The notes beneath the pieces were generated by a model that had not been told where the DNA came from, did not search any database, and saw only the letters and a program-made list of their open reading frames with translations. DNA of 64,000 nucleotides. It comes from Streptomyces sp. NBC_01463 (GTDB lineage Bacteria; Actinomycetota; Actinomycetes; Streptomycetales; Streptomycetaceae). Shown here one piece after another: positions 18,366 through 34,032 of the stretch (position 1 is its first letter; the number at the start of each line of letters is the position of its first letter). The stretch spans positions 8,618,001-8,682,000 of the forward strand of contig CP109468.1 of assembly GCA_036227345.1 (NCBI GenBank). Reading direction: 5' to 3'. The translations under genes and the position numbers were made by a program.

Positions 18366-19226
18366 ATGGGGTGGGTTCCGGCGGGCGACTACGAAGTCGC
18401 TCTGGAAGCGGGCAAGGTGGTCTGCCGCAACGGGAAGGGACGGCGGCTGAAGTCGGTTCCGGCCAAACTGAAGGAGGACCCGGCGGTCGTCGGGCTCCGG
18501 CAGTTGACCGAGTGGCTGGAGCGGCACGAGCACCAGTGCCTGACCGACGTCGAGCAGTGGATGGTGCGTTCGCTGCCCGTCCCCACGGCGGTGCTCGCCC
18601 GCGTCTGGCCCGATCCGGCGTGGCAGGCGGCTCTGCGGGACGTGGTCGTCACGGGTGCGGACGGCGGGGTCGCCGGGTTCCTGCGCGATGTCGACCCGGA
18701 CCGCGGTCTCGGGCTCGTCGACCTGGACGGCGACACGGTCCGCATCACCCCGGACGTCGTCAGCGTGCCTCACCCGGTCCTCCTCGACGACCTCGACGAA
18801 CTGCGGGAGTTCGCGGTCGAACTGGGAGTCAGCCAGAACGTGGAGCAGTTGTTCCGCGAGGTGTGGCGCCGCCCGCCGGGCCTCGCCCCCGACACCACAT
18901 CCGTGGACACGTATGCCGGCGGCGTGTTCAAGGAACTGCGCTTCCTGCACGGCCGCGTCACCCAACTCGGATACCGGTCGCGCGGCGGATACGCGGTCTG
19001 CCCGGTCGTCGAGGACGGCGCCACCACCGAGGCACGTATCTGGATCGGTGAGCACGACGGGTACGACGCGTACGACACCGAGACGGGCCCCCTGGGCTGG
19101 ACCGACCCCTCGGGGCGCGCGCTGACGGTCGCCGAGGTCGGCCCCGTCACGTGGTCCGAGGGCATGCGCATGGCGGCGGCGCTCTACGCCGGCCGCGACG
19201 TGGAGAACGAGGAGCGGGCGGCATGA
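18366..19226 (+). CDS. DUF4132 protein (MolR/YehI C-terminal type)
   Basis: 286 residues from ATG 18366, with GGGGAG upstream. It contains a DUF4132-like stretch: PDPAWQAALRDVVV, GLGLVDLDGDTVRITP, VSVPHPVLLDDLDEL, then SQNVEQLFREVWR and the C-terminal SRGGYAVCPV/ARIWIGEH strands. In E. coli YehI (MolR) this domain is C-terminal to a much larger protein; here it stands nearly alone. It is the first gene of an operon of five, and its stop overlaps the next start (ATGA at 19223). A TAGAGT at about 18269 could be the operon's -10, but I see no matching -35. The molecular function of DUF4132 is not known to me. Confidence 0.75.
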   Translation: MGWVPAGDYEVALEAGKVVCRNGKGRRLKSVPAKLKEDPAVVGLRQLTEWLERHEHQCLTDVEQWMVRSLPVPTAVLARVWPDPAWQAALRDVVVTGADGGVAGFLRDVDPDRGLGLVDLDGDTVRITPDVVSVPHPVLLDDLDELREFAVELGVSQNVEQLFREVWRRPPGLAPDTTSVDTYAGGVFKELRFLHGRVTQLGYRSRGGYAVCPVVEDGATTEARIWIGEHDGYDAYDTETGPLGWTDPSGRALTVAEVGPVTWSEGMRMAAALYAGRDVENEERAA

Positions 19227-22200
19227 GCATCACGACGACGAACACCAACACGGACCCGACGGCCGCCGACGCGACGCCCCTTCCCGCCCAGGCCCGGGGA
19301 AGGATCACCTCCGCCCACGCCGACGAGGCCCGTGCGGCGGCCCTGCTCGACGCGGGCACGATCCTCCCGGCCGGCACCACCGACCGGGACGACGCCGACG
19401 CGCTGACCGCCCGCACCTACACGCACACCGCCCTCGGCGACCGCCCCGTGGTCCGGCTCGTGCCCGGCACCCTCGGTGAAGCGGAGGACCTGGCCCTGGA
19501 GTTCCTCGGGCTGGCCCGGACCGCCGAGGCCCCCGTCGTCGGCCAGGTGCGCCGCGAGACACTGGGCTTCCCGGCCTGGGCGCTGGTCAACGACCCGGCC
19601 AACGGGCACCACGCCCTCGCCCTGGTCAAGGACATCGAGCGGCTGGGCCGGCAGGCCAAGACCCGCGCCGGAGCGGCCAAGGAGGGCTTCGACGCGCTCG
19701 GCGTCCGCCTCGGCCGTGCCGTGCCCCACTTCCTCCCCACCTACTACGAGCAGGTGGCGCGCCTCTTCCTCCAGGCTGAGAACACCACCTACGCCGCGTC
19801 CTTCTTCGGCAAGGCCCGCGAGGCCGAGCGGGTGCACGGGCTGGTCGTGGACGAGGACCGGCAGCGGGCCGTCTTCCTGGAGTTCGCCTTCGCCGGCGCA
19901 CTGACCGTCAAGGCACTGCGCCAGTACGTACGGGACCTGGTGGCCCGGCTCGCCCCGGCCGACGCCTGGGCGCAGTTCCGCCGTCTGCTCGTCGAGCGCT
20001 GCGCGGCCGGCATGCCGCCGTACGCGGCGCTGCCGCAGGACGTGCGCGCGCTGGTCAAGGCCGCCGGACTGGACCGCGAGGCCGCCGAACGCGATCTGGT
20101 GGCCGATCTGATCGGCTCCCCGGGAGTCGTCCGCGCCCCCGCCTCGTTCTGGACGGCCTACCGTTCCGCGCTCATCGCCCTGGCCCGACGGGACGTGGCC
20201 GTGCGGGCCCGGCTCCTCGGCTTCTTCCCGGAGACCTTCAGCGAGGGCCACGGGGAGAAGGCCGGTGAATCCGACTGGCTGGCGTTGCTGGCCGAGTCCG
20301 GCGCCGAGGACCTGCTGACAGCTCTCCCGGACAACACCCCTTCGGACTCCGCCCCCGCCGACCCGACCGTCTCCCCGGCGGACTGGCTCGCCCGCTGGGA
20401 GGCACACCGCCGGCGCAACCGGGTCACCTCGGGCCGCAGCCGGCAGACCCTCGACCTGGTGGCCCGGATGGCGGACCGGCTGCGCGCCGACGGACGCCCC
20501 GTCGAGCTGTTCCAGGGCCGCTGGCAGCGCAATGCCGACCTGGACCTTCTCGACCTCTGCCTGGCCTCCGGTGTCCCCGTCGCCGAGCCGGACGACCAGG
20601 ACGCGGGCAATGCGCGGTCCAACGGCTTCTCGTTGGGCCCATGGCTCACCGACACCGTGCCCGGAGCGCGGGACCTCACCGCCGTCGCCGGCCGGCCGGT
20701 CTTCCGCGCCCTTCTCCTCGGCAACGTCGGCGGCCTCGGCGACGGGCACGGCCAGCGCCTGAGCGACGCCGGCATGGCGAAGCTTGCGGCACATCCGGTG
20801 CTCTCCGGAATCCTGCGGGAGTGGCTGACCACCTGCGCCGAGGAGTACACGGCCGCACGAGGACTCCCCGGGCTGCGCACCGCCCTCCACAGGCTCTCGG
20901 CGTTCCGCGGTGTGATCGCGGACGTCGCCCCGGAAGCCGTGCGGCTCCTCAAGGCCCACGACGTCGTGCCGCTGCTCGCCTCCACCCTGCGCACCGGCGT
21001 CCTCGACGAACTGGGCTGGCCCGCGCTCGACGAGGCCTACGCCGAACTGGCCGCCGAGGCCGCCGCCTCCACACGTCAGCGGCACCACCGGTCGGAGAGC
21101 GTCGGCGTCACCGGCGCCTGGCCCGCACTGATCCTGAACACGCCCGAACGGGCCGTCGTCGTCGGCCCGGAAGGTGTGCTGCTGCGGCACACCCTGCGGC
21201 TGCCCGCCAGCTCCGACCAATGGCGGACTCCCGCCTTCCGTTACGTCGACGGCGAGTTGCTGGTCATCTGGTGGGAGGACGGCAAGCAGTCCGGCTACTG
21301 GTCGCACCGCCCGGCCGACGTGTTCACCGTCGGCGGTGACCAGATCCCGCGCTGGGGCGGCTCCGGCCCCTCGGACGAGGTCTGCCTGCCGCTGCCCGGT
21401 GGCGGCCGCGCGACCGGCGGCAAGGCGCTCCACGCGGGCGACACCTCCCTCCCGGCCCAGCGCGCCGTCATCTCCGACGGCACCGGTCACTGGCGGGAGG
21501 GCCACCAGGGCACCCAGCAGGTATGGCTGGAGTACGACCCGGTCAGCGGCACGCACGGCCGCTCCTCCCTGCCCGGCTTCCTCCGCTCCGGGGTGCGGGA
21601 CGGCACCCGGCTGCTCACCGACCGCTGTCAGGTGCTGCCGCTCCAGCCCGGTCTGGAGACCACCCCGTTCGGCACGGACGGCACGGTCCTCGGCCGCTGG
21701 GTCCGCCGTACGGTCACCGAGCCCGGCACCGCCGACCCCGCCGACGGCCACCGGATCGTCGCCGGCACCCCCGACGGCCACACGGTCACCCTGCCGTACC
21801 CGTTGCCCGGCGGCGGCTCCCCGGTGCCGCTCGGCGGCCTCACGCTCCCCGGCGGGTCACGGCCGGTCATGGCCCTGAACCACCGCTCCGTCGAAGCGCA
21901 CCCGTCGGACGCGGACGGCACCGGTGGCCGCCTGTGGTCCGTCTCCCTCGACTCCTCCGGTGGCAACGACGCTGCGGGCACGCCCTACGTGCCTCCCATG
22001 GCCTACTGGCACGCCCTGCGCCCGAGGGACGAGAGGGGCTCCCGCGCCCTGCGGGACCTGACGGACTCCCGGGCGGGGGAGCTGTTCAAGCAGGTCGCCG
22101 CCGAGGTCGCCCGGCACTGGGAGGCCTACCGGGCTGTCGAGGAGTACACCGGGCCCTCGGCACAGGAACTGAGTCAGGTGGCGGTCGCCCGGGTGCTGCC

Positions 22201-24409
22201 CGAGGTGACCGACGCCCAACTCCTCGCAGGCGTCACCGCGCTCGTCCGGAGCGCGGTGGACCGGGCTGTCTCGGCCGCCCAGTACCTGGAGCCGCCCAAG
22301 CCCGTGGAGCCGGCCACGCCCCGGAACACCGCGCGCACCAAGGGCATGTTCTTCGAGCACGAACCCGAGCACGCCGACGACACGACCCTGCAGACCGCCT
22401 CCGCGTGGAACTCCGAGCGGATGCACGGCGGCTGGTGGGGTGCCGGGAGACGATGGACCGCGATCCGGCAGATCCTCGCCGTCAACCATGTCCTCGCCGG
22501 CGAGCCGGCGTTCGGCCCGCCCATCCCGTCCAAGGTTCCGTTCACCCCGGTGGACGGCTGGCAGCGGGACGAGTACACCGTGCCCGGTGACTTCGTGAGC
22601 TGGCCCTCCCTCCTCGACTGCCTGCCCGAACTGGCCTACCGCGCAGCCTCCCCGACCACTTCCCCCGAGCACCGCGAGGGCCTCCTCGTGCTGCTGGAGA
22701 CCCTCGCCGCGGGGCCGCTGGCCGACCCGGCGGGCACGGTCCGGCAGGTGGAACTCATCGAACCGTTCCCCGCAGGGAACGCGGCGACGGGACGCCAGGA
22801 CGCCGTGCACCGCCTCGGCCAGGTGCTGCGCAAGGGCACCCGCACTGTCGTCGTCATCGCCAGCCGTGGCCGGAACTACTACTACGGCGACGCGGCTCGC
22901 TGGCTCGCCCTGGACCACGACCCGACCGGCGCCTTCGGTCCCGTCCCCGGCTTCACCCTGGACCACGAACACGTGCACCGGCAGGGCATCGCCCGCGACC
23001 GGCTCACCCGGATCGTCGCCCTGGTAAGGGAGCAGGGTCCGGCACCTTGGCGTCCGGAGGCCGCCGAAGCGTTCGACTCCGCCACCGGAATCGGATCCCT
23101 CCAGTCCGCCGCCCTGCTGTCGGCAGCCGTCGAGGAGCCAGGCGCCGAGGCGCTCGCACTGCTGGGGACGAAGACACGTGCCTTCGAGGCGACCCTGGCC
23201 AGGCTCAACTCCCTGCCCCGCGACGACCGGCACGCCCTGATCCGGGCACTGCTGCCGGCAGATCCAGCCGAGCTGTGGTCCACGGGCCCCGATGTCCGGG
23301 CCGCCGCCGAGGTCTGGCAGGAGCGCCTGGCCTCCCTCGTCCGCGTCCCCGAGGAAATGGACCTGGACCTGTCGGGCACCGGCTCCGGCGCCGTCGACCT
23401 GATCCTCAACACGGGTTCCCGGACCTGGCTCGCCCACGGCACCGCCGTCCAGGACGGCACCGGCCGCCCGGGCCTGCTCCAAGTGAGCGCACGTGGTGCG
23501 GTCTTCTCGGCCCTGACCGCGCTGAACACCCTCGCCTACACGCTGCCGTACGGACACCCCCTGCGGGCACACCTGCCCGTCGGACTCGCGGCCCTGCGCA
23601 GCCGCCTCGCCGACCCGGACCTGGTGCTGGACCTCGGTCTGGAGTGGACCGAATCGGGGAGCTCGATCGGCCTCGCGGTCCGCGCCGCCCACGGGCTGCC
23701 CGAATCCGGCGGCGCCGACGCCGACGGCCTGGTCCGGGCCGGTACGGCGCTGCTCCTCGCCCCCGGCCACGGCGACAACGAGAAACTGCTGATCCGTCCG
23801 GCCGGCCTGACCGGGCCCGAAGACCCGGCGTTCGGCCTGGTCGAGGGCACCGTCGGTGGTCACGGCAGCGGCGATCTGCTCGCGCTGCGCACCCTGCTGG
23901 GCGAGGGGACCGAGGCGTTGGCCGCGGCGGGCACCCCGGACGGCTCCCCGCACTATCCGGCCCAGGACCCGACGCGCGCGGTGCCGGACCTGGTGACCGA
24001 GGCCGCCGACACCCTCGGCCTGAGCGCGGACGCCGCCGCTCTCTACCTGATGCTGCTCACTCTGCCCGACCCGACGGACCGCAACTGCGTCCGCTGGACC
24101 GAGTGGAAGCCGGCCCGGGTCAAGAAGGCCCGGGCGGAACTCGTCGCCACCGACCTCGTCGTGGAGGCGAAGCGCTCCCGCGCCGGCCGCACCCTGTTCC
24201 TCCCCTGCGGCTGGCTCGAACGCGGCGCCCCCGGACTGCCGCTGGAGACCTGGAAGGAAGGCCTGTACCCCGTGGCCGGATCCACCCGGACCATGCCACC
24301 CCTCCCCGTGCCCGCACTGTTCGCAGCGGCCTGGGGACGGGTCCGCGGCGGCGACGCCCCCGCCTTCGAGGAACTGGAAACCCGCGCCACCCGGAAGGGC
24401 CGCCGATGA
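19223..24409 (+). CDS. Giant protein of unknown function in the MoxR-VWA operon
   Basis: 1,728 residues from the ATG overlapping the DUF4132 stop. There is no signal peptide or membrane helix; it is a soluble, mostly helical protein rich in Ala, Leu and Arg. I recognise no enzyme domain. Two features stand out. A central region (about 620-930) is beta-rich, with many Trp and Gly (GELLVIWWEDGKQSGYWSHR, WREGHQGTQQVWLEYDP). Near the C-terminus (about 1,600-1,690), LGLSADAAALYLMLLTLPDP, then WKPARVKKARAELVATDLVV and AGRTLFLPCGW, looks like a winged-helix domain. The stop overlaps the MoxR ATPase start (ATGA at 24406). Its size and central place suggest it is the scaffold or client-recognition part; that is inference. 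Confidence 0.75.
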   Translation: MSITTTNTNTDPTAADATPLPAQARGRITSAHADEARAAALLDAGTILPAGTTDRDDADALTARTYTHTALGDRPVVRLVPGTLGEAEDLALEFLGLARTAEAPVVGQVRRETLGFPAWALVNDPANGHHALALVKDIERLGRQAKTRAGAAKEGFDALGVRLGRAVPHFLPTYYEQVARLFLQAENTTYAASFFGKAREAERVHGLVVDEDRQRAVFLEFAFAGALTVKALRQYVRDLVARLAPADAWAQFRRLLVERCAAGMPPYAALPQDVRALVKAAGLDREAAERDLVADLIGSPGVVRAPASFWTAYRSALIALARRDVAVRARLLGFFPETFSEGHGEKAGESDWLALLAESGAEDLLTALPDNTPSDSAPADPTVSPADWLARWEAHRRRNRVTSGRSRQTLDLVARMADRLRADGRPVELFQGRWQRNADLDLLDLCLASGVPVAEPDDQDAGNARSNGFSLGPWLTDTVPGARDLTAVAGRPVFRALLLGNVGGLGDGHGQRLSDAGMAKLAAHPVLSGILREWLTTCAEEYTAARGLPGLRTALHRLSAFRGVIADVAPEAVRLLKAHDVVPLLASTLRTGVLDELGWPALDEAYAELAAEAAASTRQRHHRSESVGVTGAWPALILNTPERAVVVGPEGVLLRHTLRLPASSDQWRTPAFRYVDGELLVIWWEDGKQSGYWSHRPADVFTVGGDQIPRWGGSGPSDEVCLPLPGGGRATGGKALHAGDTSLPAQRAVISDGTGHWREGHQGTQQVWLEYDPVSGTHGRSSLPGFLRSGVRDGTRLLTDRCQVLPLQPGLETTPFGTDGTVLGRWVRRTVTEPGTADPADGHRIVAGTPDGHTVTLPYPLPGGGSPVPLGGLTLPGGSRPVMALNHRSVEAHPSDADGTGGRLWSVSLDSSGGNDAAGTPYVPPMAYWHALRPRDERGSRALRDLTDSRAGELFKQVAAEVARHWEAYRAVEEYTGPSAQELSQVAVARVLPEVTDAQLLAGVTALVRSAVDRAVSAAQYLEPPKPVEPATPRNTARTKGMFFEHEPEHADDTTLQTASAWNSERMHGGWWGAGRRWTAIRQILAVNHVLAGEPAFGPPIPSKVPFTPVDGWQRDEYTVPGDFVSWPSLLDCLPELAYRAASPTTSPEHREGLLVLLETLAAGPLADPAGTVRQVELIEPFPAGNAATGRQDAVHRLGQVLRKGTRTVVVIASRGRNYYYGDAARWLALDHDPTGAFGPVPGFTLDHEHVHRQGIARDRLTRIVALVREQGPAPWRPEAAEAFDSATGIGSLQSAALLSAAVEEPGAEALALLGTKTRAFEATLARLNSLPRDDRHALIRALLPADPAELWSTGPDVRAAAEVWQERLASLVRVPEEMDLDLSGTGSGAVDLILNTGSRTWLAHGTAVQDGTGRPGLLQVSARGAVFSALTALNTLAYTLPYGHPLRAHLPVGLAALRSRLADPDLVLDLGLEWTESGSSIGLAVRAAHGLPESGGADADGLVRAGTALLLAPGHGDNEKLLIRPAGLTGPEDPAFGLVEGTVGGHGSGDLLALRTLLGEGTEALAAAGTPDGSPHYPAQDPTRAVPDLVTEAADTLGLSADAAALYLMLLTLPDPTDRNCVRWTEWKPARVKKARAELVATDLVVEAKRSRAGRTLFLPCGWLERGAPGLPLETWKEGLYPVAGSTRTMPPLPVPALFAAAWGRVRGGDAPAFEELETRATRKGRR

Positions 24410-25629
24410 CGAACGACATCACGACCACCTTGGACAGCACCGCCGCGGTCGGCGACCCGGACCGGGCCGCGGCGCCCGGCCGCGCGCCCCGCCAGGTCAC
24501 ACCGCCCGAGGACCGGTACGCCACCGAGCTTGCCTTCCTCGCCGCCCACGACTCCGGGCCCCGCCCACCCGGCTGGCTGCTCACCCCGCGTGCCGTCGTC
24601 ACCTTCGTGATGGGCAGCGCGGGCGAGGCACTGAGCCTGCCGAAGGACGCCCGGCCCGGATCCGGGGTGCCGCCCCGCCTGGTGATCGAGCAGAAGTTCG
24701 TCGGCGAACGCGCCCTGGTCGAACGGTGCGTGGTCACCCTTGCCGGAGAGCGCGGACTCCTCCTCGTGGGCGAACCGGGCACCGCCAAGTCCATGCTCTC
24801 CGAGTTGCTGTCGGCGGCCGTCTGCGGAACCAGCGCGCTCACCGTGCAGGGCACCGCCGGAACCACCGAGGACCAGCTCAAGTACGGCTGGAACTACGCA
24901 TTGCTGCTCGCCCAGGGGCCCACCGAACAGGCCCTGGTGCCCTCCCCGGTTCTCACGGCCATGACCCGGGGCGCCGTCGCCCGAGTCGAAGAGGTCACCC
25001 GCTGCCTGCCGGAGGTCCAGGACGCTCTGGTGTCACTGCTCTCCGAGCGGCGGATCGCGGTCCCCGAACTCGCGGGCAGCGAGGGCGCCCAAGTGCACGC
25101 GGCCCCCGGGTTCACCCTCATCGCCACCGCCAACCTGCGGGACAAAGGCGTCTCGGAGATGTCCGCCGCCCTCAAGCGGCGCTTCAACTTCGAGACGGTC
25201 GGCCCCATCGGGGACGTGGACGCCGAGACCGCCCTCGTCCGAAGCCAGTCGCAGGCAGCCGTCGAACGCGTGGGTGCCGCCTACCAGGTGGACGACGCGG
25301 TCCTCGAAGCCCTCGTCACCGCCTTCCGGGACCTGCGCGAGGGCCGCTCCGTGGAGGGCTGGGAGGTCGAACGCCCCTCCACGGTGATGAGCACGGCGGA
25401 GGCCGTCTCCGTCGCGGGCTCCCTGGGCCTGGCCGCCGCCTACTTCCCGGGCGACCGTGACGTGCTCTCCCTCCTGCCGGGCCACCTGCTCGGTGTCGTC
25501 CGCAAGGACGACCCCGCCGACGCGGCACGGCTGCTGGGGTACTGGGACGGTCCGGTGCGCAGGCGCGCGGAGCAGGGCTCGGCCACGTGGCGCGCCCTGT
25601 GGGATCTGCGCGCGGTGCTGGAGAGCTGA
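24406..25629 (+). CDS. MoxR-family AAA+ ATPase, YehL-like
   Basis: 407 residues. Walker A is GEPGTAKS (122-129). The Walker B region reads VARVEEVTRCLPEVQDALVS (about 192-211), which matches the MoxR hhhDExx...QxALL pattern except that the usual Asp is Glu. Sensor 1 is LIATANLRD (Asn243), and the arginine finger region is ALKRRFNFE (Arg258/259). A lid domain follows to about residue 400. MoxR ATPases act as chaperones or remodelling motors and work with VWA proteins, here the next gene, 3 bp downstream. The subfamily that pairs with DUF5682, VWA and SWIM genes is that of E. coli YehL. Confidence 0.9.
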   Translation: MTNDITTTLDSTAAVGDPDRAAAPGRAPRQVTPPEDRYATELAFLAAHDSGPRPPGWLLTPRAVVTFVMGSAGEALSLPKDARPGSGVPPRLVIEQKFVGERALVERCVVTLAGERGLLLVGEPGTAKSMLSELLSAAVCGTSALTVQGTAGTTEDQLKYGWNYALLLAQGPTEQALVPSPVLTAMTRGAVARVEEVTRCLPEVQDALVSLLSERRIAVPELAGSEGAQVHAAPGFTLIATANLRDKGVSEMSAALKRRFNFETVGPIGDVDAETALVRSQSQAAVERVGAAYQVDDAVLEALVTAFRDLREGRSVEGWEVERPSTVMSTAEAVSVAGSLGLAAAYFPGDRDVLSLLPGHLLGVVRKDDPADAARLLGYWDGPVRRRAEQGSATWRALWDLRAVLES

Positions 25630-25632
25630 CGG

Positions 25633-28600
25633 ATGATCGAGTCGACCACTCCCGAGACGCGGCCCACAGCCGAGCCACGGTCCACCGGCGAGTCACGGTC
25701 CGCTGCCGAGACGCGGCCCACAGCCGAGCCACGGTCCACCGGCGAGTCACGGTCCGCTGCCGAGACGCGGCCCCCCGCCGATCGGCCGTCCGCTGCCGAG
25801 TCGCGATCCGCTGCCCAGGAGCCGCCTGCCGCTGGGGTGTTGCCCACCGCCGGTGCGTCGGCGGTGTCCTCGGCACGGGGACCGGCGGCCGGGTCCGCCA
25901 CTGCGGAGGACGCGGTGGCGGACCTGGCGGCGACCGGCCCCGGGCTGCCGTTCCTGATCGGGGTGCGCCACCACGCACCCTCATTGGCGGCCGCCCTCCC
26001 GGCGCTGCTGGACGCGGCGGCCCCCGACGTCCTCCTCATCGAACTGCCCGCCGAGTTCCAGCCCTGGCTGGGCTGGCTCGCCCACGAGGAGACCGAGGCC
26101 CCGGTGGCGCTGGCCGCCGTGCCCGCCGACGGCCCGGGGCCGGGCACGGGAGGCGAACGGGGACCGGCCTTCTACCCGTTCGCGGACTTCTCGCCGGAGC
26201 TGGTCGCTCTGCGCTGGGCGGCAAGAAACGGTGTGCCGGCCGTGGCCATCGACCTGCCGCTGGCCGACCGGGCGTGGGCGGAGGGCGGTCCGGACACCTC
26301 CGCCCCCGCCCCCGCGCCTGTCCCTGGCGCAGACTCCGCTCCCGTGCCGGGGGAGGGGCGCGGACTGTCCGCCGCGCTCCGGTCCCGGCTCACCGGCCGG
26401 GACGGCGACGACCTGTGGGACCGGCTGGTGGAGGCCCTCGCACCCGGTTCGACACCCGAGGCGCTCCGCCGTGCCGCCCTGCTGACCGGCTGGGCACTGC
26501 GGTACGAGGCCGAGGCGCTGGGCGGAGTGCAGGGCACGGACCTGGTGCGCGAGGCATGCATGCGCGGACACGTCGCCGAGGCCCTGGCGAACGGGCAGCG
26601 GCCCGCCGTGGTGGTGGGCGCCTTCCACACCCCGGCGCTCCTGCCGGCCGTCGCCGAGGCCACCCGGGGTTCGGGCCCGGTCGCGCGGGACGAGTCCGCC
26701 GCGGCGCCCGAGCCGGGCGCGGACGGTCACGTAAACAGGGCTGCGGGGGCGGGGGAGTGCACGGTCTCCCTGGTCCCGTACACGTACCCGTTGCTCGACT
26801 CACGGTCCGGCTACCCGGCCGGGATCCGGGACCCGGAGTGGCAGCACACCGTCCTGGGCGCCGCCGGGGACCCGGCGGCGCTGCACGAAGCACTGATCCG
26901 TACCGCGGTCCGCGTCTGTGCCGCGCTGCGCGAACAGGGTCACCCCTACGGCCCGGCGGAGGGCCGGGAAGTCGTCCGGGTGGCCGGTGACCTGGCACGG
27001 CTGCGCGGCCTGCCCGCCCCCGGACGCGGTGAGTTCCTGGAAGCCGTGCAGACGGTGCTGGGGCGTGGCGAGACCTACGGCACGGGCCGCGCCGTCGCCA
27101 AGGCCCTCGAACGCGTACTCGTCGGAGTCCGCACCGGACGGCCCACGCCCGCCGCTCCGCGCAGCGGACTGGGACCCGCCGTCGAGGCCGAGACCGATGC
27201 GCTCTCCCTCCCCGGCCCCGGGGACGCGCACGAGAAGGCACCGCGCGACCTCAGGCTCGACCCGGCCCGCTCCACCCTGGACCGGCGGCGCGAACTGCTG
27301 CTGCGCAGACTGACGGTGTGCGGCATCCCGTACGCGCAGGAGCAGGGGGTGACCGGCGCGGCGGGCACGGAAGGACTCACGACGCGCTGGCAGGTGCGGT
27401 GGACCCCGGCGACGGCCGCGATGCTCACCGCGGCCGGGGCCCGCGGCGTCACCCCGGCCCAGGCGGCAGCAGGACTGCTGCGACAACGGCACGCGGCCGA
27501 GCGCGCGGAGGGCGGCCCGACGGCCGCCCAGGTCGTTCGAGGCCTCACGCAGGCCGCCGAATGCGGGCTCCCCGCGCTGGCCGACGAACGGCTGGCCGAA
27601 CTGGCGGCCGTACTGCCCGCGAGCGGCACCCTTCCCGAACTTCTCACCGGGCTGGACCTGCTGGACCGCATCCAGGCCGGCCATCTGCCGGGCCTGACCG
27701 AGCCAGACGGCCCCTCGGCCCCCGACGCCACGGTCTCCGATCCCGACACCACCGCCTCAGGTCTCGACGCCACGGCCTCCGGCCGCGCCGAGCGCACCGT
27801 GCACGCGGCCGAACTCCTGACCTCGGCCGCGGTCCGTCAGGTCGACGGCCTGACCGGATCCGAGGAGCCCGAGGACGCTCGCGCGCTGCTCGAACTGGCC
27901 CAGCGGGCCGACCGGTTGGGCGGCATCCGGCTCACCGCGGCCCTCGCCCGGCTGGCCGCCGACGGCACCCCGTTGATCGCCGCGGCCGCCGGGGCGGTCA
28001 GGGTGCTCACGGGTCACGACGAGGCCGAGGCCTTCGGGGGGCGAGTCGGCTCCTGGGTGGACGGAGCCGTGGACAGCGCCTCCCGGGCCGCGCTCGCCGC
28101 CCGCCTCACCGGAGTCCTGACGGTGGCGGGCCCACTCCTGACCGTCGGCGTAGCAGCCCTTGACCCGTTGCTGCACCGGGTCGTCGAGCTGGACGACAGC
28201 GGGTTCCTGGCCCGCCTGCCGGCCCTGCGCGGTGGCTTCGACACCCTGAGCCCGGCGGCCCGGGACCGGCTGCTGGACACCGTCGAGGAGCGGCTGGGCG
28301 AACGGGTGGGCACCCTGGACGCGGACGATCCGGCCGAGCTGGCCCGCCGAACGACCGCCGACCTCGCCGCCCGCGAGCTCCTGGCCGGCCTGGGTCTGCC
28401 CGTCCCGGTACCTGCACACGAGGGCCCGGCACCTGCACAGGAGGGCCCGGCTCCCGCTCTTGAAGGGCTGGTACCTGCGCATGAGGAGCCGGCACCTGCG
28501 CACGAGGGCCCGGCTCCCGCTCACGAAGACCGGTTCCGACCGCCGCCCGGCAATCCCGCCACCGCGCGCCCCATGGTCACCCCCGCCAACGCGCCATCTG

Positions 28601-29793
28601 CCGCAGCCACCCCCGCGCGCGCCCTCGCTCCCGCTCCCGGTATCGCACCCTCCACCCCGGCCACCCCCGCGCGGACGCTCGGCCCCGCCGACCGGTGGCG
28701 GCTCGTGCTCGGCCGACGGCCCGACCAACTGCCGTCCGGCGCCGCCCGTCTGGCGACCGCTCTGGATGAGCTCTACGGCACGGGACACGGCGAAGGGTCG
28801 CGCAGCGGTCTGCCCGGACCGGGGCACGGTTCCGGACCGCGCGGCGGCCGGGAACCGTCGTTCCCCGGCGTCCGCGAGTGGTCCGAGGAACTGGCCGCAC
28901 TGTTCGGCCCCGGCATCCGCGAGGAAGTCCTCGCCGCCGCGGCCGCGACAGGCCGGCAGGACGTCCTCGCCGAACTCGACCCGGCGGCCGCCACTCCCTC
29001 CGTGGAACTGCTCCGGACGATCCTGCGGTACGCGGGCGGCCTCCCCGAAGCCCGCCTCGCGGCGCTCCGCCCCCTGGTCCGCCGCCTCGTCGACGAACTG
29101 ACCCGGCAACTCGCCACCCGGCTGCGGCCCGCCCTCACCGGCACGATGTCGGCACGGCCCACCCGCCGCCCCGGCGGCCGGCTGGACCTGCCGCGCACGC
29201 TGCGCGCCAACCTGGCCACCGCCCGGCGGGCGGCGGACGGCACGGTCCAGGTGATCCCGGAGAGGCCGGTGTTCCGCAGCCGTGCCCGGCGGTCGGCCGA
29301 CTGGCGTCTGATCCTGGTCACCGACGTCTCCGGATCCATGGAGGCATCCACGATCTGGTCCGCGCTGACCGCCTCCGTGCTCGCCGGGGTGCCGACCCTG
29401 AGCACCCATTTCCTGACCTTCTCCACGGAGGTCGTCGACCTCACCGGCCATGTGCACGATCCCCTCTCCCTCCTGCTGGAGGTGAGCGTGGGCGGAGGTA
29501 CGCACATCGCCGCCGGGCTGCGGCATGCCCGCAGCCTGATAACGGTGCCCGCCCGCACCCTCGTCGTCGTCATCAGCGACTTCGAGGAGGGCGCACCGCT
29601 CGGCGGACTGCTGGCCGAGGTGCGGGCCCTGGTGACCACCGGCTGCCACGTCCTCGGGTGCGCGAGTCTCGACGACGCGGGCCGTCCCCGCTACTCGACG
29701 GGCGTCGCCGGACAACTCGTGGCCGCCGGCATGCCCGTGGCAGCCCTCAGCCCACTCGAACTGGCACGTTGGATAGGGGAGAAGACCGCATGA
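25633..29793 (+). CDS. DUF5682-VWA fusion protein (YehM + YehP like)
   Basis: 1,386 residues. Residues 1-100 are a Thr/Glu/Arg/Ser/Pro-rich disordered tail built on tandem repeats. DUF5682 spans about 105-930: LIGVRHHAPSLAAALPALL (His113/114), VLLIELPAEF (Glu137) and VVVGAFHTPAL (His332) are its key strands. A Pro/Ala repeat linker (about 927-968) follows, then a helical part and a C-terminal VWA domain (about 1,220-1,386) with an intact MIDAS, DVSGSM at 1,231-1,236, GGGTHIAAG, and SDFEEG. VWA domains bind partners through a metal and are the usual co-factor of MoxR ATPases. In E. coli these are two separate proteins, YehM and YehP. The stop overlaps the SWIM gene (ATGA at 29790). Confidence 0.88.
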   Translation: MIESTTPETRPTAEPRSTGESRSAAETRPTAEPRSTGESRSAAETRPPADRPSAAESRSAAQEPPAAGVLPTAGASAVSSARGPAAGSATAEDAVADLAATGPGLPFLIGVRHHAPSLAAALPALLDAAAPDVLLIELPAEFQPWLGWLAHEETEAPVALAAVPADGPGPGTGGERGPAFYPFADFSPELVALRWAARNGVPAVAIDLPLADRAWAEGGPDTSAPAPAPVPGADSAPVPGEGRGLSAALRSRLTGRDGDDLWDRLVEALAPGSTPEALRRAALLTGWALRYEAEALGGVQGTDLVREACMRGHVAEALANGQRPAVVVGAFHTPALLPAVAEATRGSGPVARDESAAAPEPGADGHVNRAAGAGECTVSLVPYTYPLLDSRSGYPAGIRDPEWQHTVLGAAGDPAALHEALIRTAVRVCAALREQGHPYGPAEGREVVRVAGDLARLRGLPAPGRGEFLEAVQTVLGRGETYGTGRAVAKALERVLVGVRTGRPTPAAPRSGLGPAVEAETDALSLPGPGDAHEKAPRDLRLDPARSTLDRRRELLLRRLTVCGIPYAQEQGVTGAAGTEGLTTRWQVRWTPATAAMLTAAGARGVTPAQAAAGLLRQRHAAERAEGGPTAAQVVRGLTQAAECGLPALADERLAELAAVLPASGTLPELLTGLDLLDRIQAGHLPGLTEPDGPSAPDATVSDPDTTASGLDATASGRAERTVHAAELLTSAAVRQVDGLTGSEEPEDARALLELAQRADRLGGIRLTAALARLAADGTPLIAAAAGAVRVLTGHDEAEAFGGRVGSWVDGAVDSASRAALAARLTGVLTVAGPLLTVGVAALDPLLHRVVELDDSGFLARLPALRGGFDTLSPAARDRLLDTVEERLGERVGTLDADDPAELARRTTADLAARELLAGLGLPVPVPAHEGPAPAQEGPAPALEGLVPAHEEPAPAHEGPAPAHEDRFRPPPGNPATARPMVTPANAPSAAATPARALAPAPGIAPSTPATPARTLGPADRWRLVLGRRPDQLPSGAARLATALDELYGTGHGEGSRSGLPGPGHGSGPRGGREPSFPGVREWSEELAALFGPGIREEVLAAAAATGRQDVLAELDPAAATPSVELLRTILRYAGGLPEARLAALRPLVRRLVDELTRQLATRLRPALTGTMSARPTRRPGGRLDLPRTLRANLATARRAADGTVQVIPERPVFRSRARRSADWRLILVTDVSGSMEASTIWSALTASVLAGVPTLSTHFLTFSTEVVDLTGHVHDPLSLLLEVSVGGGTHIAAGLRHARSLITVPARTLVVVISDFEEGAPLGGLLAEVRALVTTGCHVLGCASLDDAGRPRYSTGVAGQLVAAGMPVAALSPLELARWIGEKTA
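25654..25761 (+). repeat. Two perfect 54-bp tandem repeats in coding DNA
   Basis: Unit 1 at 25654-25707 and unit 2 at 25708-25761 are identical, and a diverged partial third copy follows from 25762. Each unit is itself made of three related 18-bp blocks beginning GAGACG, GAGCCA and GAGTCA. The repeats encode ETRPTAEPRSTGESRSAA twice, in frame, so copy-number changes would alter only the length of the disordered N-terminal tail. Confidence 0.95.
28411..28536 (+). repeat. Six 21-bp repeats encoding a Pro/Ala/Glu linker
   Basis: Six degenerate 21-bp units encode PAHEGPA, PAQEGPA, PALEGLV, PAHEEPA, PAHEGPA and PAHEDRF in succession. They form the linker between the DUF5682 part and the C-terminal half of the fusion. 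Period and frame are kept, consistent with slippage-driven expansion of a flexible spacer. Confidence 0.9.
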
Positions 29794-31673
29794 CCGCAGA
29801 CCGGCTGCCACCCGTCGCGCCGGAGGTCACGGCAACGCTGGTGGAGGAACTCTCGCCCCGGCTGCGCAAACGCCTGGACGCGATGGTCACCAAGCTCGCC
29901 GCACGCCCCACGCACCGCGACGGGGACACGGTGACGATCGCGGTCGACGACGACACCGAGTTGCGCCTGCACGCCCCGGGCGGTGTGGTGGCGACGGCGG
30001 ACGGCATCGTCTGCGGTTGCCTCCTCGCCCCGGCCTGCGCCCACCGCGCGGCCGCCGCCTGCGCCGCCCCGACGGCGGACCCGGCACCGGAACACGCCGA
30101 TCAGTCCACCCCGCCGACCTACGAACCAGACTCCGCAACGGCCACCGCCCCTGGCCCCACCCCCGACACAGCCTCCCCGCCCGATGTGGCGCTCCCGGTA
30201 CAGCGCGCCGCGGCCGACGCCCTGTGGGCGGCGGGCGCCGCCGTGCTGGAGGCCGGCGTGGACGGGGCCGGCGCGGTCACCCAGTCGGCGCTCCTCCGCG
30301 CCGCGCACACCGCCCGGCTCCAGCAACTGCCCCGTGCCGCGGGCGCCGCGCTGTCCGTGGTGACCCTGCTGCGCGCGGCCCGCGCAGGGGACCCGTCCTA
30401 CCGCACCGCCGACCTCGTCACGGCCCTGGCCGAACTCCTGGGCACCGCACATCGAGTGGGAACGGCGTCCGGCGCGGAGCTGGCCGCTGTCCGGGGCCGC
30501 GCGCGCCGCCCGTACAGCGCCGACGGCTCGCTGCGCCTGTACGGCCTGTTCACCGAACCCGTGGTCACCGACTCGGGGCACGGCGGCGTCCGTACCTGGG
30601 TCGCGGGTTCCGACGGCCGCCTCTTCACAGTCGGCGATGTGGCACCCGGCGGCGTCGGACGCGCCCTGGGCGTGGCCGACCGGGCCGTGCGGCTGGGGGA
30701 CAGCGCGCTCACCCACCGGGAGCTGGGCCGGGCCGGCCTGGCGGTCTCGGGGGCGACGGTCTCGCCGGACGGCAGACTGGGCGCCGGGAAGGGCGTCAAA
30801 GCCGTGACCGCGCGGGGTGCGGCGTGGACGGAGCCGCCGCTCGCCGCCCTGTGGGACACGCCGCCGTCCGAACAGGCCGCCCGCGCCCTGCGGTCCACCT
30901 CCCGCTACGGGGACCAGGACGGCGGTGGCAGTGACTTGCTCTTCCTGGACGTCGAACTCCTCGGGGCGGTGCGGGAGTCGGGTGGCACCTGCCTGCTCGC
31001 GCGGTGCGAGGGAGGCGTTCCTGTCGCCGGTGCGCCCGCCGAGGCGTGGGTACGTCTCACCGTCGCCGACGACGATCCCGCGCTGGCCCACCGCGACAAC
31101 CTGATGCTGCTGGCCACGGCACCGGGGACACGGCTGAGGATCATCGGACGGCTGGTGCCCGCTCTCCACCCCCGGCTCACCCTCCTCGCCTGCTCGCACC
31201 CCACCGGCGCGGGCACGATCGACTTCGGCCTCGACCGCCTGCGCCGCGCCGACCTCCCGGACCCGACTGCCCCCGCGCACCTCGCCCCGCCACAGCCCGG
31301 AGAGAGCGGCGCGCAGTCGCCGCTGTACCTCCTGGAGCGCCGGGTGGAACAGACGGTCCCGGCGGGCCGCGCCGCCCTCGGCATGCTCGGCGACGTCACC
31401 GCCGAGGCCCGCCGCATCCGCCGTGCGGGCCTCCCCACGGCCGCCGGACTCCTCACCGCCCTGTGCGCCTCGGCGGCCCAACGCGATCGCGACCTCTTCG
31501 GCCGCCTCCTCCCTGCCGACACCGACGGGTTCGCCACCTACTGGCTCGCGTCCGCCCGCTACACGGCCGCAGTGGCCGAGTCGCTGTGCGCGGCAGCCTG
31601 GGGCCCGGCACAGGAGGTTCCGTCCGCGGCGCCGTCCGACCTGGAACAGGAGCCACGACCAACGTACCGATGA
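29790..31673 (+). CDS. SWIM zinc-finger protein, YehQ-like
   Basis: 627 residues, last gene of the operon. A SWIM motif CxCx(n)CxH is present near the N-terminus: Cys75, Cys77, Cys83 and His85 in GIVCGCLLAPACAHR. SWIM fingers bind DNA or protein. A Pro/Thr-rich linker (about 95-130) leads to a long Ala/Leu/Arg-rich region with beta segments (RPYSADGSLRLYGLF, WVRLTVADDDP, RLRIIGRLVPAL) that I cannot assign. E. coli YehQ is the SWIM protein of the homologous locus. No terminator is obvious in the 173 bp after the stop, only a short CTGAGCC repeat at about 31694-31710. Confidence 0.85.
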   Translation: MTADRLPPVAPEVTATLVEELSPRLRKRLDAMVTKLAARPTHRDGDTVTIAVDDDTELRLHAPGGVVATADGIVCGCLLAPACAHRAAAACAAPTADPAPEHADQSTPPTYEPDSATATAPGPTPDTASPPDVALPVQRAAADALWAAGAAVLEAGVDGAGAVTQSALLRAAHTARLQQLPRAAGAALSVVTLLRAARAGDPSYRTADLVTALAELLGTAHRVGTASGAELAAVRGRARRPYSADGSLRLYGLFTEPVVTDSGHGGVRTWVAGSDGRLFTVGDVAPGGVGRALGVADRAVRLGDSALTHRELGRAGLAVSGATVSPDGRLGAGKGVKAVTARGAAWTEPPLAALWDTPPSEQAARALRSTSRYGDQDGGGSDLLFLDVELLGAVRESGGTCLLARCEGGVPVAGAPAEAWVRLTVADDDPALAHRDNLMLLATAPGTRLRIIGRLVPALHPRLTLLACSHPTGAGTIDFGLDRLRRADLPDPTAPAHLAPPQPGESGAQSPLYLLERRVEQTVPAGRAALGMLGDVTAEARRIRRAGLPTAAGLLTALCASAAQRDRDLFGRLLPADTDGFATYWLASARYTAAVAESLCAAAWGPAQEVPSAAPSDLEQEPRPTYR

Positions 31674-31846: not shown

Positions 31847-32227
31847 ATGAGTGACCTGACGAAGCCGGAGATCGTCGTTCCGGAGGGTGACGCTCCGACC
31901 GAGCTGACCATCCGTGACCTCGTCGTCGGGGACGGCCTTGAGGCGAAGCCGGGCAGGGTCGTCCACGTCCACTACGTCGGCGCCACCTTCGAGTCCGGGA
32001 AGGAGTTCGACGCCTCCTGGGACCGGGGCCGGCCGTTCAAGTTCGCCGTGGGCGGGGGCAGGGTCATCAAGGGCTGGGACCGCGGGGTCAGAGGGATGAA
32101 GGTCGGCGGCCGGCGCGAGATCATCGTTCCCCCGCGCCTCGGCTACGGCAACCAGTCGCCCTCGGTGTCGATCCCGGCGGGCTCGACGCTCGTCTTCGTG
32201 GTGGACCTGCTCTCCGTCGCAGTCTGA
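31847..32227 (+). CDS. FKBP-type peptidyl-prolyl cis-trans isomerase
   Basis: 126 residues from ATG 31847, with GAGG 6 nt upstream. The FKBP core is complete: VHVHYVGATFESGKEFDASW, the FKFAVGGGRVIKGWDRGVRG strand and active-site loop (Val-Ile-Lys-Gly-Trp), GGRREIIVPPRLGYGNQ and STLVFVVDLLSV. It is a single-domain cytoplasmic form with no signal peptide. It catalyses prolyl isomerisation in protein folding and would bind FK506/rapamycin-type macrolides. It lies between the MoxR-VWA operon and the caspase pair on the same strand, but is separated by 173 and 171 bp and has its own hairpin, so it is probably an independent housekeeping gene. Confidence 0.93.
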   Translation: MSDLTKPEIVVPEGDAPTELTIRDLVVGDGLEAKPGRVVHVHYVGATFESGKEFDASWDRGRPFKFAVGGGRVIKGWDRGVRGMKVGGRREIIVPPRLGYGNQSPSVSIPAGSTLVFVVDLLSVAV

Positions 32228-32398: not shown

Positions 32399-33424
32399 AT
32401 GGACAGTGATCGTCGCGCTCTTCTGGTGGGGGTGCCGCAGCAGACCGAGCACGCCTTTCCACTGCGGTCCATCGGCGATCCCGTCCGCGAGGACCTGCGC
32501 AGGATGCGCGAAGCCCTTGAGGCCTGCGAGTACCGGTGCACGGTGCTCGGCCCGGGAGGTCCCGACGAGAGCAGGCGGGACGCCATCCAGGACGCTGTCC
32601 GGGACGCGCTGCGCTCGGTCCCGGCCGGCGGTGTGCTGTTCGTCTACTTCTCCGGCCACGGACTGCACCTCGGAGGAAAGGACCACCTGGTCCCCTCCAA
32701 CGCCAAGGCGCTGGCCGACGGCAGCCCGGACACGGACTCGCTGATCGACCTGGACCGGGACTTCTTCGGCATGCTGGGGCCGACCGCCTGCCCCGCGGCC
32801 TTGGTCATCGCCTGCTTCGACGCCTGCCGTGACGGATCGGGTACGAGCGGCATCCGCCCGTACCACTACCGGGCGCCGCACCCCACACAACTGGTCGTCG
32901 GCAACAGCTGCGCACCGGGGGAGACCAGCGGATACGACGCCGACGGCAGCCATTTCACCAAGGCCCTGGCATACGCGCTGCACCCCGATTCGCCCCACCG
33001 CACGCTCCGGCAGGTCAGCGCCTCGGTCACGGCGGAGCTCAGGGACCACGAGCAGCATCCCCAGTGGTCGCCCGCCGGCGACCTCCCCGACGTCGTGGTC
33101 GCCGATACCGGCGGCGTGCCGGAGTGGGTGCAGGCGGTGTCCACCGCACACCTGTGGAGCCTGCCGTGCAGTGATCCTCCGGAGGTGCAGGAGGTGCTCC
33201 GCGAGCGCGTGGAAGCGGCCGTGCGGAGCCTGTCCGGAAAGTACCGCCGGGCGAGCGAACAGATGCCGCACCCTTGGCGGGACGACGACTATCCGATGCG
33301 CGTGCTGGACAGCGTCGCCGGGCTCCCCACCGGCACGCGCCCGCTCAGGGTCAACCACTCCGGACGCCCCGACGTGGAGAGGCAGCTCGGCTGCGGTGCC
33401 CACTGGCAGGCCGGCCGCCCGTGA
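32399..33424 (+). CDS. Caspase-like protease (peptidase C14 family)
   Basis: 341 residues from ATG 32399. The N-terminal p20-like domain has RALLVGVPQ at the start (strand 1) and the catalytic dyad in its usual contexts: His87 in LFVYFSGHGLH and Cys143 in VIACFDACRDGSG. The acidic pocket expected of Arg/Lys-specific bacterial caspases and metacaspases cannot be judged by eye. After about residue 230 comes a helical C-terminal part of about 110 residues of unknown type. It has no signal peptide, so it is cytosolic. The stop overlaps the GTG of a three-helix membrane protein (GTGA at 33421), which makes that protein its probable partner or substrate. Bacterial caspases often act in regulated cell death or conflict systems. 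Confidence 0.88.
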   Translation: MDSDRRALLVGVPQQTEHAFPLRSIGDPVREDLRRMREALEACEYRCTVLGPGGPDESRRDAIQDAVRDALRSVPAGGVLFVYFSGHGLHLGGKDHLVPSNAKALADGSPDTDSLIDLDRDFFGMLGPTACPAALVIACFDACRDGSGTSGIRPYHYRAPHPTQLVVGNSCAPGETSGYDADGSHFTKALAYALHPDSPHRTLRQVSASVTAELRDHEQHPQWSPAGDLPDVVVADTGGVPEWVQAVSTAHLWSLPCSDPPEVQEVLRERVEAAVRSLSGKYRRASEQMPHPWRDDDYPMRVLDSVAGLPTGTRPLRVNHSGRPDVERQLGCGAHWQAGRP

Positions 33425-34032
33425 CCCAGCGTCCGGAGAGCAGATGGCAGGACCTCGCCGATGAACTCCCCTTCCAGCAGCTGGACATCGTACGCAGACA
33501 GGCGGAGGGATGGCGCAACGGCCTCACCGGGCTGACCGGCCTCCTCACGGCCGTACTCGTCCTCAAGGGGCGCGAGACGTTCACCGACCTGCCCGGCTGG
33601 GCGGTGGTCCTGGCGAGCGGCCTCATCGCAGGCGGGTTCCTGTTGCTGCTGGCGGGGACTCTGCTGGCGGTACGAGCCAGCCATGGGCGCCGGACCAAGG
33701 ACATCGTGACCAATGGCGCGGATCTGGAGGAGTGGACGGAGCAGGAGACGCAGGACTGCCGGCGGGCCCTGTCCCGGGCCATCGGCTGTTTCGTCGCCGG
33801 GGTGATGCTCGTCGCGTCATCCGTGGGGGTGGCCTGGACGACGTACGCGAGCCCGGGCCCGAGTCCCGGCATGAGTGTTCAGGTGACCACGACCGGCGGC
33901 GTCCTGTGCGGGCGGCTTGCCGCATCCGACGGGAAGACGCTGCGACTGACCACGGGCACCGCGCCGGAGCAGCGCGTGCGGTCCGTGCCCATGGCCACCG
34001 CACTCGCCGTGGTCGCGGTGCCTGCCTGCTGA
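33421..34032 (+). CDS. Three-helix membrane protein coupled to the caspase gene
   Basis: 203 residues from the GTG overlapping the caspase stop. A 30-residue cytoplasmic start rich in Gln, Asp and Arg is followed by TM1 (about 33-50), TM2 (about 58-82, WAVVLASGLIAGGFLLLL), a charged loop of about 35 residues (RTKDIVTNGADLEEWTEQET) and TM3 (about 119-140). A small C-terminal domain on the opposite side has beta strands and two cysteines (GGVLCGRL and VPAC). No family recognised. The Arg/Lys sites in the cytoplasmic loop (SHGRRTKD) would suit a caspase-like protease; that it is cleaved is only a hypothesis. Confidence 0.75.
   Translation: MTQRPESRWQDLADELPFQQLDIVRRQAEGWRNGLTGLTGLLTAVLVLKGRETFTDLPGWAVVLASGLIAGGFLLLLAGTLLAVRASHGRRTKDIVTNGADLEEWTEQETQDCRRALSRAIGCFVAGVMLVASSVGVAWTTYASPGPSPGMSVQVTTTGGVLCGRLAASDGKTLRLTTGTAPEQRVRSVPMATALAVVAVPAC

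Follow-up and report, generated by a model that had tools for sequence, protein, structure and literature searches.

Five consecutive genes on the forward strand of Streptomyces sp. NBC_01463 are described here as a variant of the family to which the yehI-L-M-P-Q locus of Escherichia coli belongs. They lie in a 64,000-nucleotide stretch of DNA (hereafter the window) at 8.62-8.68 Mb of the 9.07-Mb host genome, where they occupy positions 18366-31673 and are called g1 to g5 in order (Table 1). The layout given in the initial annotation was confirmed from the sequence: the five open reading frames share one strand and are joined by three ATGA overlaps, at g1/g2, g2/g3 and g4/g5, and by a 3-bp gap between g3 and g4. 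The overlaps suggest coupled translation; they do not point to the fixed stoichiometry that had been read from the tight gene coupling.

Table 1 Features of the five-gene operon and of the genes downstream of it (window positions)
Feature	Position	Strand	Evidence or remark
g1: DUF4132 protein, 286 residues	18366-19226	+	PF13569, E 2.3e-28; matches the C-terminus of E. coli YehI
g2: scaffold protein, 1,728 residues	19223-24409	+	No Pfam family above cut-off
g2 residues ~582-946: predicted beta-propeller domain	20966-22060	+	Moderate confidence
g2 residues ~1589-1728: strongly conserved C-terminal segment	23987-24406	+	Winged-helix-like by eye only
g3: YehL-type MoxR AAA+ ATPase, 407 residues, P-loop GEPGTAKS	24406-25629	+	AAA_5, E 8.6e-38
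g4: DUF5682-VWA fusion, 1,386 residues (YehM and YehP joined)	25633-29793	+	PF18934, E 9.4e-203; PF05762, E 1.6e-65
g4 residues ~100-345: predicted Tiki/TraB-superfamily hydrolase-like domain (H113, H114, E137, R306, E307, M310, G329, H332)	25930-26667	+	
g4 residues 1160-1381: CoxE-type VWA, metal-ion-dependent adhesion site (MIDAS) DVSGS	29110-29775	+	Pfam; chain ends just past the domain with LELARWIGEKTA
g5: SWIM-motif protein, 627 residues, in the YehQ position	29790-31673	+	Motif only
SWIM zinc-finger motif CGCLLAPACAH in g5	30012-30044	+	CxCx5CxH
FKBP-type prolyl isomerase	31847-32227	+	Between the operon and the caspase gene
Caspase (Peptidase_C14) with iHD-CE segment, 4-bp overlap with a 203-residue protein having hydrophobic segments	32399-34032	+	

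Snider and Houry are said to have divided the MoxR proteins into subfamilies, of which YehL is one. In BLASTP comparisons with E. coli K-12, g3 is 45.7% identical to YehL (E 5e-97), the VWA part of g4 is 36% identical to YehP (E 2.5e-37) and its DUF5682 part is 27% identical to YehM (E 1e-12). The sequence patterns of the MoxR-VWA pair are well kept: Walker A, ATAN and L[KR]RRF occur intact in all 90 complete g3 relatives of the window's type (class III below), DxSGS of the MIDAS is found in 63 of 63 g4 relatives, and the C-terminal tail LELARW[IV]GEK in 55 of those 63. DUF5682 is fused N-terminally to the VWA domain, which keeps this tail free. In NorQD, a finger of the VWA protein enters the MoxR pore and the post-sensor-1 loop is bound by the C-terminus of the VWA; the MIDAS is regarded as the likely binding site of the target, and the linker of NorD has been proposed to be twisted as ATP is turned over (PMC9976466, PMC13036017).

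The DUF4132 protein g1 reaches a BLASTP E value of only 0.035 against YehI, and hhalign places its residues 9-267 on the C-terminus of the YehI family (87%). The giant protein g2 matched no family above cut-off in Pfam, PADLOC or NCBIfam, and ten near or distant relatives of it matched none in Pfam; a supposed eleventh relative, at L112, was rejected as an unrelated RelA/SpoT protein. When alignments covering portions of g2 and g4 were searched against the sequences in the PDB, nothing matched at E <= 10. By hhalign, g2 showed no similarity to the profiles of YehI or DUF5691, the latter built from an alignment that also contained a 637-residue Fusobacterium protein which Pfam does not place in DUF5691. 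We predict with moderate confidence that g2 bears a beta-propeller, and its C-terminal segment resembles a winged helix by eye only. In plasmid records, some relatives of g2 bear the label 'DNA-binding protein'. Nothing in Pfam matched g5 at E <= 1, so that its SWIM assignment is by motif only; CxCx5CxH (residues 75-85) is kept in 58 of 58 complete g5 relatives longer than 500 residues, the BLASTP match to YehQ has an E value of 8.9, and hhalign to the YehQ family gives 5.3%, which is not significant. The homology to the E. coli locus proposed in the initial annotation was thus upheld by profile or BLASTP for MoxR, DUF5682, VWA and DUF4132, with profile support for DUF4132 and DUF5682 (Table 1), and by the motif for SWIM, which no profile supported.

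The five genes travel together. A search of genome contigs with g2, from which the best 80 of 175 matching stretches were kept, gave 76 loci, all from Streptomyces apart from one [Kitasatospora] papulosa and one Actinacidiphila. Completeness was judged in the 55 loci whose sequence extends at least 1 kb upstream and 7.5 kb downstream of g2, the other 21 being too short, and all five genes were present in 53 of them; L062 has a weak g4 and L095 has no g3-g5. Because 53 of 55 loci hold all five, we take the grouping to be beyond chance. In the g2 loci first examined, g1 was present in 96 of 96. With automatically assigned starts, the 4-bp overlap recurs in relatives at g1/g2 (84 of 102 pairs), g2/g3 (61 of 93) and g4/g5 (57 of 64), and g3 and g4 are separated by 3 bp in 26 of 82 pairs and overlap by 31 bp in another 27. 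Among 61 relatives, g2 was matched in 29 genomes, g1 in 23 and g5 in 23, with all three in 22 (in one of these, G028, g5 is a fragment only), and there were no genomes with matches to g1 and g5 but none to g2; one genome (G054) has a weak g5 match and six have a distant, standalone or spurious g2 match. By comparison, in the 50 loci with more than 2.5 kb after g5 (77 were examined, 27 of them without room or without a g5 end) neither a caspase nor an FKBP gene, both of which follow the operon in the window, was found 3' of the operon. The matches to flanking DNA, among those listed, sit away from the operon in relatives that have both (for example G005, G019 and G029), and no empty operon site was found among them. 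As 53 of 55 loci are complete, the caspase and FKBP genes are kept in none of 50 and the flanks match elsewhere in relatives, we conclude that the conserved unit consists of these five genes.

Several incomplete or distant copies were also seen. The L095 locus (S. phaeofaciens) holds g1-g2 without g3-g5 although it continues for ~10 kb. Short pieces of g1 and g2 only, probably a decayed copy of the operon, lie at G023:C1:265450-266214. Four loci (L103, L104, L105 and L106) encode distant g2 relatives of ~1,555-2,010 residues, with no BLAST match to MoxR or VWA within the surrounding 20 kb.

Proteins of the Tiki superfamily (TraB, EreA, ChaN) carry the ordered motifs H, E, R[DE]xxM and GxxH, and the N-terminus of DUF5682 has the same order; in the wider form H...E...R[END]xx[MW]...GxxH it is common to DUF5682 and the TraB sequences compared. 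We collected 30 DUF5682 proteins, in which the first motif was present in a loosened form in 30 and in its strict form in 26; to balance the set, four rows of class III were left out. In the 26 proteins aligned, from all classes, H113, E137, R306, E307, M310, G329 and H332 (g4 numbering) are invariant, among other residues, and H114 is kept in 25. The final motif pair was found in 9 of 10 TraB proteins, as in RNLAWRDKLRAMPPGRYVVAVGALH of YbaP compared with REACMRGHVAEALANGQRPAVVVGAFH of g4 in the window. In profile comparisons with hhalign, TraB outscored nine other profiles against the DUF5682 N-terminus, although the match is sub-threshold: TraB/GumN gave P 3.6e-4 (probability 36.8%), EreA P 0.024 and eight other families, among them the mixed DUF5691 alignment described above, 0.46-0.91, and with an untrimmed alignment the values were 1.3e-3 (18.2%) for TraB, 0.026 for EreA and 0.10-0.72 for the others. 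One of ten N-terminal DUF5682 pieces matched ChaN, at an E value of 0.11 that is far below the cut-off but at the corresponding end of the profile. With hmmsearch, 19 EreA proteins, which are mutually related, ranked as a group above 305 unrelated proteins (Mann-Whitney p ~1e-8).

Other results speak against such a relationship. A comparison of DUF5682 with a two-sequence TraB profile gave nothing (P 0.35), the two TraB sequences ranked only 100 (YbaP) and 173 of 272 rows in hmmsearch, and structure searches with an AlphaFold2 model (predicted local distance difference test, pLDDT, 67) found matches for nothing but the helical solenoid C-terminal to the N-terminal domain of DUF5682. It is into this modelled solenoid and, here, into the VWA domain that DUF5682 continues, unlike the Tiki proteins. 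The known pair TraB-EreA yielded only P 0.1 in the same profile test, and shallow profiles of this kind are therefore blunt. On balance, we predict from the sequences that the DUF5682 N-terminus is probably a Tiki/TraB-superfamily domain.

The families of the operon also recur in other combinations. We distinguish class I (E. coli-like yehI-L-M-P-Q), class III (the window type), class A (SWIM-DUF5691-MoxR-DUF5682-VWA) and class C (VWA, MoxR and a divergent DUF5682-like protein). The host genome itself holds three DUF5682 loci of different class, namely the window (III), L005 (A), with SWIM (E 2.7e-6), DUF5691 (E 2.8e-178), MoxR, DUF5682 and VWA, and L006 (C). Evidence on the DUF5682-like protein of L006 is mixed, with 94.9 bits in the genome search and the motifs kept but no hmmscan match, and no SWIM was shown at that locus. 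DUF5682 was found in 10 of 149 genomes of the window's phylum, and the 12 neighbourhoods examined in this phylum comprised eight of class A (SWIM in 8 of 8, DUF5691 in 5 of 8), one of class C (L143), one of class III (L144), a DUF4132-MoxR-DUF5682-VWA locus with no SWIM match (L141) and, in another Streptomyces, a full E. coli-like yehI-L-M-P-Q set whose MoxR is 64% identical to YehL (L142). At least four architectures were seen in actinobacteria.

Plasmids add further copies. YehL-type MoxR occurs at E <= 1e-20 in 40 plasmid records, of which the neighbourhoods of 10 were read; phyla beyond that of the window were covered through plasmid records and E. coli. The 10 records hold class III in Streptomyces NBC_00984, class I in Sinorhizobium, A. 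vitis and Iodobacter, class C in S. cadmiisoli, and class A with DUF5691 in Deinococcus, Rhizobium, Methylosinus and Hymenobacter, the VWA gene not being annotated in the last two. A Fusobacterium plasmid (L152) carries a SWIM motif, the 637-residue protein, MoxR, DUF5682 and VWA. The 637-residue protein (L152 8062-9975, + strand) has no Pfam family above cut-off and stands in the place of DUF5691, as a further swap of adaptor; DUF5691 was likewise not found in three of the eight actinobacterial class A loci. The co-occurrence of the families beyond close relatives, which the initial annotation had proposed to survey, is borne out: MoxR and DUF5682 occur with SWIM in five phyla (Pseudomonadota, Deinococcota, Bacteroidota, Fusobacteriota and Actinomycetota) and VWA accompanies them in four, as it is not annotated in the single Bacteroidota record read.

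In a MoxR tree of 33 rows, with the very long branch of RavA as outgroup, class I, L141 and class III are joined (96/95), class III by itself forms a group (100/100) and class C is adjacent (88/78), whereas class A falls outside the I + III clade. Because the tree joins class I, L141 and class III, DUF4132 follows this clade, as sampled. Class A shares MoxR, DUF5682, VWA and the SWIM protein with the window; it differs from it in that DUF5691 replaces DUF4132 and g2, and in that VWA is separate. As far as sequence comparison goes, we are dealing with a modular family made of MoxR, DUF5682 and VWA, usually with SWIM, in which the large subunit changes: YehI-type DUF4132, DUF5691, the Fusobacterium protein and DUF4132 plus g2 take one another's place.

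This bears on the description of the operon as an actinobacterial counterpart of the E. coli locus, which is not supported in that wording. The E. coli locus does resemble the window in having DUF4132, YehL-type MoxR, DUF5682, a CoxE-type VWA and SWIM in one run. However, its DUF5682 and VWA are separate, its DUF4132 is the end of the 1,210-residue YehI, its YehQ has two SWIM-type motifs, and it has no g2. We found no full-length YehI-like protein in the operon, and membership of class I is therefore not claimed: only the YehI C-terminus is represented, by g1, and g2 has no detectable E. coli equivalent. A direct counterpart of yehI was accordingly rejected. Since a truer E. coli-like copy exists in another Streptomyces (L142), the window operon is best seen as a sister variant, and its class as a sister clade. 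Nor is the suggestion of an undescribed system supported, given that its families are named in Pfam and that the E. coli locus is near-core, yehLMPQ being covered to at least 80% in 5,162 of 5,426 E. coli genomes. We know of no function for the E. coli yeh locus. None of the literature matches listed was about the YehL protein, and DUF5682, DUF4132 and YehQ were absent from those listed for them, which is not to claim that nothing is in print. In E. coli K-12, yehH, beside yehI (L001 7411-10270), is annotated as a pseudogene, and its pieces resemble YehI by eye.

Taken together, we favour, with modest confidence, the reading that the products of the operon make up an ATP-driven machine of five subunits that remodels, and probably processes, proteins, and that it represents a class of its own within the YehL-type MoxR-VWA family. 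Past the domain assignments, every step of its mechanism is inferred. Target selection would fall to the g2 scaffold together with g1 (DUF4132) and the SWIM zinc finger of g5, and the target might lie on nucleic acid; it may then be presented to the VWA domain of g4 through the MIDAS metal site, as NorQD suggests. Docking of the VWA domain in the MoxR hexamer would rely on a finger inserted into the pore and on the free C-terminus of the VWA domain, as shown for NorQD, and ATP hydrolysis may, by the same analogy, twist or pull the linker together with the target. Finally, the Tiki/TraB-like DUF5682 domain, in cis with the VWA domain, could cut or otherwise hydrolyse the remodelled target, as its motifs hint. 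MoxR, DUF5682, VWA and usually SWIM would be the constant engine and the large adaptor the part swapped between classes; because it is exchanged, each class probably serves a different target. More tentatively, and with doubt as to the whole, the family may be a new AAA+ hydrolase machine, in which MoxR drives a Tiki/TraB enzyme covalently tied to the VWA domain and exchangeable giant adaptors aim it at different targets. To our knowledge, no earlier MoxR-VWA machine has a built-in cutting enzyme.

What is new here is the predicted propeller scaffold (g2) and the predicted Tiki-like enzyme (DUF5682), both of which can be tested; H113, E137, R306, E307 and H332 of g4, with their YehM equivalents, provide specific residues whose role E. 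coli K-12 could be used to test. Should DUF5682 prove to be a hydrolase of the Tiki type, MoxR-VWA machines would be more than chaperones and could also power an enzyme. The comparison shows the yeh locus to be one class of a modular family, seen here in five phyla, whose engine stays constant while its adaptor is exchanged. To this family the Streptomyces class adds a 1,700-residue family without a Pfam model.

The operon could instead be a conflict system directed against invaders, comparable to the MoxR-vWA ternary systems of Kaur et al. 2020, with the ATPase setting a threshold and either g4 or g2 acting as the effector by which an infected cell is killed or contained. MoxR, VWA and a large further protein with a propeller, here predicted, are the same combination of parts, and the P-loop of g3, GEPGTAKS, fits the GXXXTAKS variant that Kaur et al. 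2020 describe as frequent in beta-propeller and FtsH MoxR-vWA systems (PMC7159879). Two features that define the beta-propeller ternary system are, however, absent: there the propeller follows VWA within one chain (PMC7159879), whereas the VWA domain of g4 ends at residue 1381 of 1386, and the bpMoxR profile gave 22.4 bits against a cut-off of 27. The third protein there has TPR and propeller regions, and in g2 a propeller is predicted with moderate confidence. SWIM, YehL, TraB, TIKI and DUF4132 do not occur in the text of that paper (PMC7159879). The operon is patchy in relatives (22 of 61), copies lie on plasmids of Streptomyces (class III) and of Sinorhizobium, A. vitis and Iodobacter (class I), type I restriction-modification genes are annotated beside the Iodobacter locus (L148), methylase- or nuclease-like reading frames (by eye) precede the Fusobacterium locus and a caspase gene begins 0.7 kb downstream of the operon in the window; but the caspase pair is kept in none of 50 loci, yehLMPQ is near-core in E. 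coli, unlike a typical patchy defence locus, and YehL-type MoxR at E <= 1e-20 was found in one phage record only. A search of the five proteins against PADLOC-DB 2.0.0 returned a sole match, in which g3 hit the model of a type II restriction enzyme (E 0.013), and NCBIfam likewise gave nothing noteworthy for the five. A defence role is thus possible but weakly supported, the conflict-system role raised in the initial annotation found no direct support, and we regard this explanation as unlikely. The phage record, MT835988.1, is a 14-kb 'Bacteriophage sp.' sequence from faeces, perhaps not a phage, with a YehL-type MoxR at 41% identity.

It is also conceivable, if improbable, that the operon is a cofactor-insertion or enzyme-activation chaperone like NorQD, CbbQO, CoxDE or RavA-ViaA, which opens one client enzyme so that a metal can enter or an inhibitor can leave, DUF5682 being a non-catalytic part that binds the client. 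The VWA domain of g4 does belong to the CoxE family, and NorQ-NorD, CbbQ-CbbO and RavA-ViaA likewise combine a MoxR ring with a partner that has a C-terminal VWA domain and act on dedicated client enzymes (PMC9976466, PMC13036017). Yet these are two-protein systems with a known client, to which SWIM, DUF4132 and a 1,700-residue adaptor are foreign; the conserved block contains no client enzyme gene (its flanks having been tested with the window's own neighbours only), and the invariant residues of the DUF5682 N-terminal domain, we infer, resemble an active site. That the genes are co-transcribed but functionally loose neighbours, with only MoxR and the VWA protein interacting and the rest as passengers, would explain the g1-g2 pair of L095 and the distant g2 relatives that stand alone. 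We consider this very improbable, as 53 of 55 loci maintain all five genes and their order, whereas the flanking genes of the window are not kept, and as other phyla also have four of the five families side by side.

The FKBP and caspase genes that follow the operon in the window were considered as members of the system and rejected on their absence from the 50 loci; the sole FKBP match (L043) lies upstream. The caspase and the 203-residue protein whose gene overlaps it look like a separate caspase/membrane-protein conflict pair.

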